Notes under the pieces: generated by a model
Databases searched by the model: none
Told to the model about the DNA's origin: nothing
The model's input: the letters and a program-made list of their open reading frames with translations, nothing else
Shown: positions 8,433-18,414 of the stretch, piece by piece
Position numbering within the stretch: position 1 is the stretch's first letter
Layout of the letters: each line of letters starts with the position of its first letter
Program-made: the position numbers and the translations under genes
Source of the DNA: Lacticaseibacillus camelliae DSM 22697 = JCM 13995
GTDB lineage: Bacteria; Bacillota; Bacilli; Lactobacillales; Lactobacillaceae
DNA: 52,120 nucleotides
Direction of reading: 5' to 3'
Assembly (NCBI RefSeq): GCF_001311195.1
Contig: NZ_BBAJ01000010.1
Coordinates: forward strand, 1 to 52,120

Positions 8433-10111
8433 CTAGTCATTTTTGACTGTAATATTGGGTTCTTTACCGAACAAATCGGTGATCGGCTTGACCACCGGGG
8501 ATTCTTCCTTGGCCGCTTGCTTGGGCTTCGGTGCGCCGTGTTCGACCAAGTACTGCTTGCGGACAACGGGCCACGCCTGTTCTTGGACCAGCACGACCTG
8601 GCGCGGGCCGCCCATCAGCTTGCTAAGGCCCTCGTTCAGCCCGGTCATCAGCGCGGAGTCGCTGTTCGCCCGCTCAATTAGGATGTCATAGGCAAAGCTG
8701 ACAATCACGCCGGTGGGGCTCGCCGCCACTGGCTTAGAGATTTTCATCATCGCCTGATCCGGCACGGACAACATCGACAACAGGTCCGGCCAAATCTCCT
8801 TGACCGCTTCAAGATCTTTCTTCGTCGCGGCGCCGAGGATCGGATAAATCTTTTCCTTGGGCACCTTGACGCTTGGTGAGCCAGTGTGGTCGGCTTCGAT
8901 TGCGGAACAGTAGCCGCTGGTGCGCCTTGCTGCAGGGTTTGAATCTGTTTGGCCAGCTTTGCAACGGTTTGTTCCAGCTGCTTCACTTCGGCACTGGCCA
9001 CTGGCGCTTGCGCCGGGACCACCTGAGGCACCGGTTGACCCAACTGCACCGTTGCCACTTCCAAGTACAAAGTCGGACTGTTGGTCAGCCGCAGCTGGCC
9101 TTGCGTCGCATTCAGCACCGCGATCATGTGGTACAGCTGGGTGGGTTTAAACTGATCCGCCAGTGCCTTAAAGTGGCTATCTTGGAGCGCACTGGCGGTG
9201 TCGTTGACCAGCGCCGGCGCCTGCTGGTAAACCAGCAGATCACGCAAGTAGCCAATCAGGTCATCGATCAGCCGCCCGGCGTCCTTGCCGGAAGCCAGTA
9301 GCTGTTCAATGGTCGTCAGCGCTGCCGCTGTGTCGTTTTCCGCCACGTGCTGAAGATACTCGCCCAGCTGGACAACAGCCGCTCCGCCGGTCACATCAAG
9401 CGCATTTTCCACTGTCACGTGATCCTGACCAAACGCCAGCACCTGATCGAGGATGGACAGCGCATCGCGCATACCGCCTTCCGCCGCCTTGGCAATGACC
9501 ATCAGTGCCTGATCGTCGTACGTGATCTTCTTATCGTCCAAGATGAACTGCATGCGCTTGACGATGTCATCGGCAGTGATCCGGCGAAAATCAAACCGCT
9601 GGGTCCGGCTGATGATCGTCGCCGGAATTTTTTGCGGTTCGGTCGTCGCCAGGATGAAGACCACATGGGCCGGCGGTTCCTCAAGCGTCTTGAGCAGCGC
9701 GTTGAAGGCGCCGGTCGACAACATGTGGACTTCATCAATGATGTAAACCTTAGTTTTACCTTCAGTCGGCGCGTACTTCGCCTTGTCACGAATATCACGA
9801 ATCTCGTCAACGCCGTTGTTCGAGGCCGCATCAATTTCGATGACGTCGGTCATGCTGCCGTTGTTGATCGCCACGCACAAATCACACGTGTTGTCCGGTT
9901 CCCCAGCTTCAATATGGCGACAGTTCAGCGCCTTGGCCAAAATTTTGGCGACACTGGTCTTCCCCGTCCCACGCGGTCCACAGAAAAGATAGGCGTGGCT
10001 GGTTTGCTGCTCGATCAGGGCATTTTTCAGCGTCGTGGTGATGGCATCTTGGCCGATCACATCTTTGAATTGCTGGGGCCGAAAGACCCGGTATAGCGCT
10101 TGATAAGCCAC
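8433..10111 (-). CDS. dnaX: DNA polymerase III gamma/tau subunit (frameshift)
   Basis: Clamp-loader ATPase and organiser of the replisome. AAA+ domain with Walker A GPRGTGKTS, a zinc site (CRHIEAGEPDNTCDLC), DEVHMLS Walker B, and SRTQRFDFRRI near the sensor region, followed by the collar and a tau-specific C-terminal part of about 140 residues. The GTG at 10111 is preceded by AAAGGATGAGG. The frame changes near 8870-8890 within the C-terminal third. There is no slippery A-run there, so I read an indel rather than the programmed frameshift known for dnaX in some bacteria. Joined length of about 560 residues is typical. Confidence 0.93.
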
Positions 10112-10151: not shown

Positions 10152-10634
10152 AGGCTGCGAAGCGGGACGCTTTTAGCGGGATGGCTAGCCTAGGTAGCGG
10201 CATTGCCGTCGCACTTGGGCGGCGAGGCTGCTGCCGTAGCTAGACACGCCCGCGTTGGCCCGCTGAGCGCAACTACAGGCTGCGAAGTGAGGCGAACTTA
10301 GCAGGATGGCCAGCCTAGGTTAGGGCCTTGAAGCCGCTCTTGGGCTTCGAGGTCCTGGCCGTAGCTGGACACGCCTGCGTCGCCTCACGGAGCGCAACTA
10401 CAGGCTGCGAAGCGGGACGCTTTTAGCAGGATGGCCAGCTAGGTAGCGGCATTGACGCCGCACCTGGGCGGCGAGGCTGCTGCCGTAGCTAGACATGCCC
10501 GCGTTGGCCCGCTGAGCGCAACTACAGGCTGCGAAGTGAGGCGAACTTAGCAGGATGGCCAGCCCAGGTAAGGGCCTTGAAGCCGCTCTTGGGCTTCGAG
10601 GTCCTGGCCCGTAGTGGGACGCTTTTAGCGGAAT
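10152..10634. repeat. Tandem array of ~125-bp structured repeats, types A-B-A-B'
   Basis: Four units start with the same AGGCTGCGAAG and the first three end with GCGCAACTAC: A 10152-10276 (125 bp), B 10277-10401 (125 bp), A' 10402-10525 (124 bp), B' 10526 to about 10616 (truncated), then a fragment resembling an A start (GGGACGCTTTTAGCGG, ending at 10634). Type A has the outer stem AGCGGG/CCCGCT; type B has GTGAGGCGA/TCGCCTCAC at the same place. The apical stem is CGCCGC/GCGGCG in A' (one G-U pair in A) and GAAGCC/GGCTTC in B. Arms change together, so structure is conserved. Minus-strand frames over the array only repeat peptides such as GHPAKSVPLRSL and look non-coding. Identity unknown. Confidence 0.85.
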
Positions 10635-10709: not shown

Positions 10710-12371
10710 ATGCTTCATTACTTACAACGCCACCCCTGGCGCGTGACATTATCGATTGGCCTGAGCGTCGCTGCCGCAGCCGTGCTGGTCGCCTATTCCT
10801 ATGTGCTGCAACTGATCACTGATATCGCGACCGGGCGGGTGAATTTGGCCTTCTCAATCGCCGTCCCATTAATTGTTGGCTATCTCGTAATCCAGGCCGT
10901 GACCAATTCAGCCAGCGAGTATGTCAATGAGGCACTGCCACTGCAGTTGGGAGATGAGTTGCGCCGTGATCTTTTCAGCCGCGACCTGGCGCAGCGACCA
11001 AACGTATTTGGCCAGCAACCCGTCGGCAACTATGTGACCCAGCTGACCAAACAAGTCGACATTGTCACCAGCAGCTATTTTCACGTCATCCTGCGCGCCT
11101 TCTACCTGCTGATGCTATTGGTGTTTGCCGCGGCGGGCACCCTGCTGATCGATCCGGTCATCACTTTGGCGGTCGTGCTGCTTAGTTTGCCCGCGCTGAT
11201 TTTCCCCTTTCTGGTGAAAAAAACCGCTAGAACATGCTAAAGATCAGGTCGTTTCGGCAATCGAGCGGTACACCAGTCGGGTGACCGATTCGCTGAGCGG
11301 TTTTACCACCATTGCCCACGCTTTGGCACAGCCGCCATTTCACCGACTGCACCAGCAAGTCAGCCGCGATGTCCGCCTGACCTCGACCCGCGAGCAACAG
11401 ATTCAAAAAATCACCAGCGGGATGTCCGATTTTCTTGGCGACATCATGTACCTAGGCACCTGGCTCGTCGGTGCCTACTTTGTGCGGCAAGGGCAGATCA
11501 CGTTGGGCCAGCTGGTTGCCTTCTCGCAGCTGGCCAGCTTCTTTAACTGGCCCCTAGCGCTGCTGACCGAAATGCTGGCTCAATTTTACGGTGCGCGTAA
11601 AGTGGCCAAGCAGTTGGCCGGGCTAGCTCGGCCTGCGACCACCACCCCCACTGCGACCCGGAAAAACTCAAACTGACGAATCCCCTGATTGAAGCGCACC
11701 AGGCAAGCTATCAGAAAGTGCTCCACGACATCGAGCTCAGGCTTGAACCCGACCAGAAGTACCTGCTGGTCGGTGCCAGTGGGAGTGGCAAAACGACCCT
11801 GATGCGACTACTGCTGGGCGAGCTGACCCCAACCAGCGGTCGGGTCACGCTGAGCGGCCAGCCAGCGGCCAAGCTGGCGCCCGCTTCCGTCTTCGGCCTG
11901 ATCGGCGAACTGGAACAGCAGGCCGATATTTTTGCCGGCACGGTTCGCGAGAACGTCACCTTATTCAGCAAAGATTACACCGATGATCAGGTGGCAGCTG
12001 CCCTGCGCCAAGCCGGCATGACCGACTGGCTAGCGACGCACGGGCTGGACACCGTGGTTGACCGCACCAGTCCCCTGCTTTCGGGTGGGGAAAAGCAGCG
12101 GGTCTCCTTGGCCCGCCTGCTGCTGCGTCATTATCAATTCATGGTGCTCGACGAAATGACCACGGGCCTAGACCCGCAAATCGCCGACCGCCTGCAGGCC
12201 GACATCTTCAACATGAAGCAGGGCTTCGTCATGATCACGCACCAGTACAACGCGGCCACGTTCGCCAAGGCGGACCGAATCTTCGTCATGGCGGCCGGCC
12301 GGATCGTTGCCGCCGGGACCCAGCGTGACCCACAAGTGGCCGCCGCACTCGACAGTCTGGCACTGCATTGA
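10710..12371 (+). CDS. ABC exporter, fused membrane and ATPase domains (two frameshifts)
   Basis: Half-transporter of the ABC exporter type. The N-terminal half has about six membrane helices (residues about 15-300). The ATPase half has Walker A VGASGSGKTT, signature LLSGGEKQRVSLARLLLR and Walker B FMVLDEMTTGLD. The ATG at 10710 follows GGAGGAG. Frame changes are in the A7 run at 11217-11223 and near 11640-11655; joined length is about 553 residues. It is alone, with no second half nearby, so it may be a homodimer. Substrate unknown; lipid, peptide or drug export are all possible. Confidence 0.85.
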
Positions 12372-12422: not shown

Positions 12423-12440
12423 TGTTTATTTGCTCAAAAA

Positions 12441-12531
12441 CTTAAGGCACATGACAAACGATCCTTAGTGCTGCTTCCTTCCGGACCTGACACAATTCGA
12501 AAGGCTGCCATTGCCTCAAGGCCTTTCGGCA
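12441..12531 (-). ncRNA. ffs: Signal recognition particle RNA, small bacterial type
   Basis: RNA scaffold of the signal recognition particle, which targets membrane proteins with Ffh. The minus strand has the invariant tip GTCAGGTCCGGAAGGAAGCA, including the GGAA tetraloop and the asymmetric loop. Flanking arms CTTGAGGCA and TGCCTTAAG pair to close the helix at 12512-12520 and 12441-12449. The 5' end is placed near 12531 from the promoter. Confidence 0.95.
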
Positions 12532-18256: not shown

Positions 18257-18297
18257 AGATTTTTCACCTCCTGTAGTTTGGTTGAAGTTTTTTCCAA

Positions 18298-18400
18298 TAA
18301 AAAAACTCCATGTCTACCAAGACATAGAGGTATCTGACGTACTGATACCACCTCGGCAGGATATTAAGGCTTGCGCCACCTGAGTCTTAGGCAGAGTGAA
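18298..18400 (-). promoter_or_regulatory. L10 ribosomal-protein leader with attenuator
   Basis: The minus-strand leader contains CCTGCCGAGGTGG, the signature of the L10(L12)4 autoregulatory site. It is followed by a terminator-like hairpin with CTCTATGTCT/AGACATGGAG arms (18306-18329) and a run of seven T. L10 binding upstream would favour termination and adjust rplJL output. Confidence 0.85.
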
Positions 18401-18414
18401 TTATCACAACGAGA

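Follow-up and report, generated by a model that had tools for sequence, protein, structure and literature searches.

The tandem repeats between dnaX and an ABC-exporter gene of Lacticaseibacillus camelliae occupy one of many sites that carry units of a dispersed family of structured repeats. These units lie between genes, turn over within their arrays, covary very strongly and show a preference for folding on one strand. On balance, we favour the view that the family is a non-autonomous mobile repeat recognised by its structure, which would disperse via an RNA or single-stranded intermediate with the help of a trans-acting factor reading its loops.

The repeat array at dnaX

In the window, i.e. 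the whole stretch of DNA that was analysed (52,120 nucleotides), the array occupies positions 10152-10634 between dnaX and the ABC-exporter reading frame; these genes are named from their translations and by the original prediction, and the reading frames bear out the location that it gave. The array comprises three complete units of about 124 nt, at 10152-10275, 10277-10400 and 10402-10524, and a truncated fourth from 10526 onwards, in the order A-B-A-B(truncated). At 10152-10614 TRF reported a period of 125 (3.6 copies) and a period of 249 (1.9 copies, 95% match), confirming the four tandem units of about 125 bp, alternating A-B-A-B', that had been described initially. Two covariance models were used, R1, built from 30 units of the same genome and trained on window units 1-3 among others, and R2, built from 62 units of other genera without any Lacticaseibacillus unit; E-values of both are rough, since the calibration was short. 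The components of the array are as follows.

10152-10276 (+): unit 1, type A, complete, five-helix rod (R1, E 2.8e-28; R2, E 1e-24)
10277-10401 (+): unit 2, type B, complete (R1, E 5.6e-28; R2, E 1.7e-24)
10402-10525 (+): unit 3, complete copy of type A that lacks one base next to the third internal loop (R1, E 6.6e-23; R2, E 1.3e-18)
10526-10609 (+): unit 4, type B copy, 3' side truncated (R1, E only 4.0e-9)
10610-10634 (+): scrap of another unit, matching unit 1 positions 7-31 (88% identity, E 0.085)

Unit 4 ends prematurely at about 10609-10614, after which the scrap extends to about 10634. Units 1 and 3 are 94% identical, and units 1 and 2 are 78% identical. Compared with dinucleotide shuffles, unit 1 has a z of -3.46 on the plus strand and -2.39 on the minus strand, and unit 2 has -7.36 and -5.52, respectively. 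Units 3 and 4, taken alone, fold weakly better than shuffles (z -1.68 with 13 of 200 shuffles as good, and z -1.95 with 9 of 200, respectively), and therefore the case for structure rests on comparison between copies.

The alternation of A and B had been thought to suggest a two-unit functional module, a view that other arrays, which hold 1 to 6 full units each, do not support. It reflects duplication of a block at this site and does not mark a functional pair. At dnaX the A-B arrangement is old, being shared with L. jixianensis, in which this site reads A-B-C-A-B-D, and partly with L. hegangensis (G018), in which units 2 and 3 of the dnaX site combine a 5' arm of type B with a 3' arm of type A.

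The ABC exporter downstream of the array (10710-12371, plus strand) appears as three consecutive frames (10710-11240, 11281-11676 and 11718-12371), which may represent a frame-broken gene or an assembly error. The dnaX reading frame (8433-10111, minus strand) runs out of frame near its end, and an overlapping frame (8433-8864) continues the apparent C-terminal part; a programmed frameshift or a sequence error could account for this break. Elsewhere in the window, Rfam identified a THF riboswitch (1136-1233), a small SRP RNA (12436-12522) and an L10 leader (18290-18409, minus strand).

Architecture of the unit

A unit of about 117-126 nt can form on its plus strand a rod consisting of helices P0, P1, P2/P3, P4 and P5, with conserved internal loops between them. 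In unit 1 these elements are located as listed below.

10154-10158 (+): helix P0, 5' arm, with a bulged T at 10156; partner 10267-10270, four pairs
10162-10168 (+): helix P1, 5' arm, the outer stem of the original prediction; partner 10257-10263, 6 of 8 pairs changing on both sides
10169-10175 (+): internal loop GnnnTTA, facing CGTT; TTA and the next G at least 90% conserved
10176-10189 (+): helices P2/P3, 5' arm; partner 10239-10253, 9 of 14 pairs changing on both sides
10190-10192 (+): internal loop CTA, facing GTA at 10236-10238; kept in most other-genera rows; insertion site of a hairpin of about 47 nt in some copies elsewhere
10193-10201 (+): helix P4, 5' arm; partner 10227-10235, 8 of 9 pairs changing on both sides
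10205-10210 (+): helix P5, 5' arm, the apical stem of the original prediction; partner 10218-10223, all 6 pairs changing on both sides

Both arms of the outer and apical stems change together between types A and B, just as had been stated. The framing sequences, which had been described as constant, themselves form a short helix, interrupted by a bulged T, whose pairs covary from copy to copy: the second pair of P0 (column 4-129) is C-G in 18, G-C in 11 and C-C in one of the 30 copies. The 3' frame GCGCAACTAC is missing from unit 4. The TTAG loop is conserved, and the AGCCTAG...GTAGCTA core is present in most rows from other genera, the CTA/GTA loop being less well kept in other families than in other genera.

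One unit (L015:1471-1595) has non-complementary outer arms, its 3' arm reading like the 5' arm, and combines a type-1 5' end with a type-2 3' end; it looks like a recombinant. A further subfamily, starting with GGGCTGTGACAAAAG, occurs at L142:1785-1900 and L114:5543-5663 and is absent at the G016 site orthologous to L142.

Covariation between copies

The four alignments examined included one, of 30 units from the L. camelliae genome, that was made by sequence alone. In it 93.4% of cells are paired and 30 of the 41 pairs change on both sides, with a covariation score of 0.531 versus 0.175 for shuffled and at most 0.107 for slid pairings; the slid pairings remove the effect of relatedness, while the shuffles leave it in. 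Pairing and covariation so far above both controls indicate that the structure did not arise by chance. The other three alignments were fitted to a model and lean towards its structure. The 141 distinct units of L. jixianensis gave 96.5% paired cells, 35 of 40 pairs changing on both sides and a score of 0.574 (shuffled 0.178, slid at most 0.104), and 61 distinct units from other genera gave 88.6%, 38 of 40 and 0.818 (0.191 and at most 0.148). Finally, a set of 33 additional units, 27 of which belong to three other families of Lactobacillales, gave 89.6%, 37 of 40 and 0.904 (shuffled 0.200, slid at most 0.156); in this set 9 of 500 shuffles reached the observed count of changed pairs. P0 and part of P3 fit less well in the last two sets, with about 68-84% of cells paired per helix. 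The covariation of the family is thus very strong, and the selection on a folded structure proposed by the original prediction is supported by all four alignments.

The folding strand

A G.T pair on one strand corresponds to an A.C pair on the other, and a preference between the two tells which strand folds. Among pairs that are at least 85% standard, the G.T:A.C ratio was 58:11 in the own-genome set, which was both recruited and aligned by sequence, 184:25 in L. jixianensis, 69:22 in other genera and 24:5 in the set mostly from other families. One more of the five sets counted gave 198:59. The cells are non-independent, and recruitment of matches with a plus-strand model may introduce a bias in this direction. 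By pair position, 24 positions in L. jixianensis favour G.T and 3 favour A.C. In alignment A5, 71 of the 103 G.T counts come from three G.U pairs that hardly vary; setting these aside leaves about 32 G.T versus 10 A.C.

In a cruciform both strands fold, so that G.T and A.C should be tolerated about equally; the observed bias makes a cruciform, the second structure considered in the original prediction, unlikely. Copies that have both neighbouring genes on the same strand (37:10) and copies that have both on the opposite strand (46:15) give similar ratios, hence the plus strand of the repeat itself is the folded form; the same similarity argues against an effect that depends on co-transcription with a neighbour. 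The working form is probably a folded single strand of RNA; the tolerance of G.T would fit RNA best and single-stranded DNA next.

Distribution of the family

A BLAST search with two window units found many places in the L. camelliae genome, and at least 58 matches to R1 were obtained there at E<=0.001, with 150 of 1066 candidates scored and at least two short reverse-strand echoes included. L. jixianensis carries at least 150 copies (about 19 kb); every one of the 150 candidates scored there matches R1, which makes a higher true number probable. Scanning named genomes for a motif returned 36 stretches, 35 of them in Lacticaseibacillus (L. suilingensis, L. suibinensis, L. hegangensis and L. 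jixianensis) and one, which no model matched, in Halomonas. The model-based search for copies in the genome and its relatives, suggested along with the original prediction, thus led to a dispersed family.

R1 matches 18 of 30 Lacticaseibacillus genomes. It matched none of 30 genomes outside the genus in the first search, and units were found in some of these later; the R1-negative results are partly a matter of sensitivity. The region upstream of dnaX in G023 contains a 124-nt tandem repeat with a similar fold, which by BLAST has 31 to 42 matches in each of five genomes of the genus, of about 3 Mb, missed by R1, and one match in G016. It is referred to as casei-type because similar sequence is located on plasmids of L. 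paracasei and L. rhamnosus. Of 24 loci with casei-type units, R2 matches 22 (best E 3.6e-19; the 33 matches include two places that were each counted twice), as it does window units 1-3 (E 1e-24 to 1.3e-18), and since this model was built from other genera only, the casei-type units are homologous to the family. Together with single units near dnaX in G019 and G029, some version of the repeat is present in at least 25 of the 30 genomes. In G023 the casei-type repeat (L169:2225-2467) lies in sense orientation in the dnaX leader, its 3' end running into the ribosome-binding site (AAAGGAGG).

Across Lactobacillaceae, R1 matches at least 26 of 201 genomes and at least 10 of 40 genera, and BLAST with a casei-type unit matches 10 of the 201. 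R2 matches at least 32 of 246 genomes of Lactobacillales, in at least 19 of 64 genera and under seven family labels, of which three besides the window's own are represented by units that were read and the remainder by R2 score. The two model searches were limited to 17 or 14 scored candidates in each genome, and their counts are therefore lower bounds.

Among plasmids, nine records contain BLAST matches to the casei-type unit, and the copies of L. paracasei and L. rhamnosus and one of L. plantarum, which were the ones searched with R2, match that model as well; the window unit pair and two units from other families had no BLAST match to plasmids. Phage records searched with one unit pair and one casei-type unit gave no match, and none of 46 viral stretches that fit a loop motif was matched by the models, which also serves as a control of specificity, as does the unmatched Halomonas stretch.

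Genomic placement

With genes delimited by a simple codon-based caller, none of 42 arrays in named 8-kb loci and none of 78 in L. jixianensis overlapped a gene. In the sample of 42, collected from four named species with a type-1 motif, 19 arrays lie antisense to both neighbours and 14 lie sense to both. For 75 arrays of L. jixianensis an upstream gene could be assigned, and 62 of them are in sense orientation at the 3' end of that gene; the stop codon is no more than 10 nt away from the start of the array in 15 of the 62, a T5 run is found no more than 16 nt upstream in 42, and 57 have either feature. Of the 47 arrays lying more than 10 nt from the stop, 42 follow a run of at least four T that ends 0-7 nt before the unit. 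By comparison, among 3720 positions chosen at random 11-70 nt behind stop codons, 237 have a T5 run within 16 nt. Elsewhere a T5 run precedes the first unit in 1 of 43 cases in other genera, 1 of 23 in the last set and 5 of 17 casei-type cases, against a background of 2-4%. The preference for terminators is lineage-specific, not general.

R1 or R2 detects units beside dnaX in nine of the 30 genomes of the genus (G000, G014, G018, G001, G008, G006, G011, G023 and G029), in different positions and in both orientations depending on the species; G015 and G016 have remnants there by eye, and neither model matches at dnaX in the remaining genomes. In G318 a group II intron match (RF00029, L325:464-562) is located directly 5' of a two-unit array, which is possibly a shared target or chance.

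Turnover of arrays

Eleven sites were compared between the closely related species G015 and G016. Nine are shared as units or remnants, and two have no unit and no clean junction. None of the 11 proved to be a clean empty site showing a target duplication, a point against mobility. Units nevertheless turn over at these sites: at L139/L140 the left flank is 99% identical and the first units are entirely different, and others differ in unit number, order and internal deletions. In L. jixianensis, 16 of 150 units have a partner at least 95% identical in another array, and the cases read include units 98-100% identical at sites with unrelated flanks, as would be expected of a non-autonomous mobile element.

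Five of the 13 listed G016 units have a G015 ortholog at least 86% identical. The 29 substitutions in these five orthologous pairs include six in three compensated pairs, eight one-sided changes that keep pairing, five that break it and ten at unpaired positions; by a rough estimate, well under one compensated pair would be expected by chance. That resident copies keep compensating is easier to reconcile with a local function than with a neutral passenger.

Among 82 L. jixianensis arrays, 21 end in a 3'-truncated unit and one starts with a 5'-truncated unit before full units; three more arrays are lone 5'-truncated pieces. This polarity is genuine. A rolling-circle origin of arrays, in which the 5' start would be fixed and the last, partial unit would repeat the first, was suggested by L202, L232, L123, L093 and the window, but was rejected: the partial unit of the 21 arrays with truncated ends is not always most similar to the first full unit, a later unit being the best match in some of them, and block duplication suffices as an explanation. 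Nor was it borne out that the newest unit stands at the 5' end, the first unit scoring higher than the last in 25 of 40 arrays, lower in 14 and equal in one (p 0.09, 150 best units).

Some units contain at their third internal loop a nested hairpin of about 47 nt (core GTCAG...CTGATCA, stems varying), on either arm and in either orientation, with two per unit in L193 and L101. It was found in 27 distinct contexts, each of which, judged by eye, lies within a unit, although most of the loci had been selected because they contain units; examples are L153:13029-13199, L154, L149, L193, L101, L202, L113 and others. In one orthologous unit pair (L153/L148) it is present in one member and absent from the other.

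Mobility and alternative explanations

The plus strand folds into the five-helix rod, more likely as RNA than as single-stranded DNA. In the mechanism that we favour, a trans-acting factor would read the conserved loops on this folded strand and insert new units at intergenic sites, in L. jixianensis mostly in sense orientation behind terminators or stop codons. Stem sequences could drift freely because only the fold and the loops would be read. Arrays would grow and shrink by block duplication of units and decay by internal deletion, and no function at the dnaX site would be required.

The main rival is a resident function, because compensation continues in resident copies and many L. jixianensis copies lie sense at 3' ends. 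The repeat would then act in cis as an RNA element within the 3' (or 5') untranslated region, where its folded plus strand would stabilise or process the transcript of the preceding gene. Both the 62 sense arrays of L. jixianensis and the compensated pairs of the orthologous units speak for such a role, but arrays antisense to both neighbours are no rarer than sense ones in the four-species sample, yet strand preference is similar, many L. jixianensis units lie behind a terminator and so outside the main transcript, and the first units at L139/L140 differ completely beside a nearly identical left flank. A cis-acting role is possible but doubtful.

The independence of strand preference from neighbouring genes, as well as the conservation of internal loops, would also be expected of a family of trans-acting small RNAs, with each unit or array producing a plus-strand RNA that binds a shared protein. 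By eye, no shared promoter is present upstream, the 5' flanks being terminators, stop codons and ribosome-binding regions, and many fast-changing copies would be unusual for small RNAs, which makes this explanation unlikely.

Complementarity might also persist without selection, if repair templated by the hairpin maintained the palindromes or if units exchanged whole stems with one another, and stem blocks do move between units (L155/L149 and the chimeric units of G018). But the internal loops are unpaired and largely conserved across genera, and repair towards a perfect palindrome would erase them; the strand preference also speaks against this process, as does a compensated pair that stands by itself in an array of one unit (L137/L142), and we assign little probability to it.

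Most improbable of all is a REP-type element moved by a RAYT/Y1 transposase: the intergenic, high-copy, hairpin-forming arrays resemble REPs as the cited account describes them (PMC3733652) and Y1 genes occur in 13 of the 30 genomes of the genus, but Y1 domains are absent from L. jixianensis (G014) with its at least 150 copies and from G000 (84.5% complete), G001, G006 and G011, and the unit measures about 120 nt, not a palindrome of 20-40 bp, has no constant GTAG tag and varies at its ends (AACTA, GATTA, GACGA, CGTTT).

For the favoured mobile repeat, Y1 transposases and reverse transcriptases were considered as mobilisers and rejected, as neither is associated with the family. Y1 domains were found in nine of 18 R1-positive and four of 12 R1-negative genomes of the genus, and reverse transcriptase domains in seven and four, respectively, with none of the latter in G001, G006 and G011 and one weak domain (E 1.2e-12) in L. 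jixianensis; because the R1-negative group is not free of carriers, these association tests are weak. A tentative extension, which we consider rather improbable, is that the repeats are SINE-like elements spread across the order, with a mobile plus-strand transcript inserted in sense at RNA 3' ends (terminator U-runs or stop codons) by machinery, of the host or of an element, that reads only the fold and loops, and with the nested hairpin as a second element specialised for the third loop.

Comparison with known elements

Rfam 15 at gathering score had no match on any unit searched, in agreement with the original prediction, which recognised no named RNA or repeat family; a permissive search of the window array yielded three sub-threshold matches of at most 19.7 bits. 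No description of this repeat family was found in the literature searched, which covered few subscription journals.

Integron attC sites are long imperfect hairpins that occur in arrays and are read by their fold and extrahelical bases, their stems being free to vary. The likeness is only one of working mode, and there are no gene cassettes between the units described here. Group IIC introns insert in sense orientation directly behind intrinsic terminators, but several carriers of the repeats are without a reverse transcriptase domain and Rfam gave no group II match within the units searched. Elements of the ERIC/NEMIS type are sequence-conserved long imperfect palindromes, whereas the present repeats vary in their stems, keep their loops and show strand preference, a distinction made by description.

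The nearest kind, as far as the published accounts drawn upon here extend, is that of structured repeats such as bcr, ERIC, REP and Efa-1, of which bcr, ERIC and Efa-1 are set apart by description. ERIC is given as about 103-140 nt, depending on the species, with a single long stem-loop (PMC2267715). The bcr1-bcr18 intergenic repeats of the Bacillus cereus group, some of them MITE-like, include bcr10 and bcr18, which are described as conserved RNA structures and partly transcribed (PMC3446304). They too are intergenic repeats of Firmicutes, but the cited account describes them for one species group (PMC3446304), whereas the present family reaches at least 19 of the 64 genera sampled in the order, and almost all of its helix pairs show changes on both sides. 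An E. coli RAYT recognises single-stranded REP DNA, REP/BIME being high-copy intergenic hairpins (PMC3733652); the repeats described here are much longer, with five helices, and several carriers have no Y1 gene. Efa-1 of Enterococcus faecalis, an intergenic structured repeat with a 163-nt model (PMC2267715), likewise comes from a species of Lactobacillales, but has two adjacent hairpins in place of one rod and, compared by description, is a lead only. A single covarying architecture across many genera is unusual among structured repeats.

Implications

The family is absent from Rfam and from the literature searched, yet it contributes about 19 kb to the genome of L. jixianensis and is present on plasmids of L. 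paracasei, L. rhamnosus and L. plantarum. It matters for annotation because its arrays sit at gene borders, promoters and terminators. Each genome rich in units provides many natural compensatory variants of one fold, and is thus a good system for studying structure recognition. The family also raises a testable question, namely what moves a short repeat without a linked transposase.
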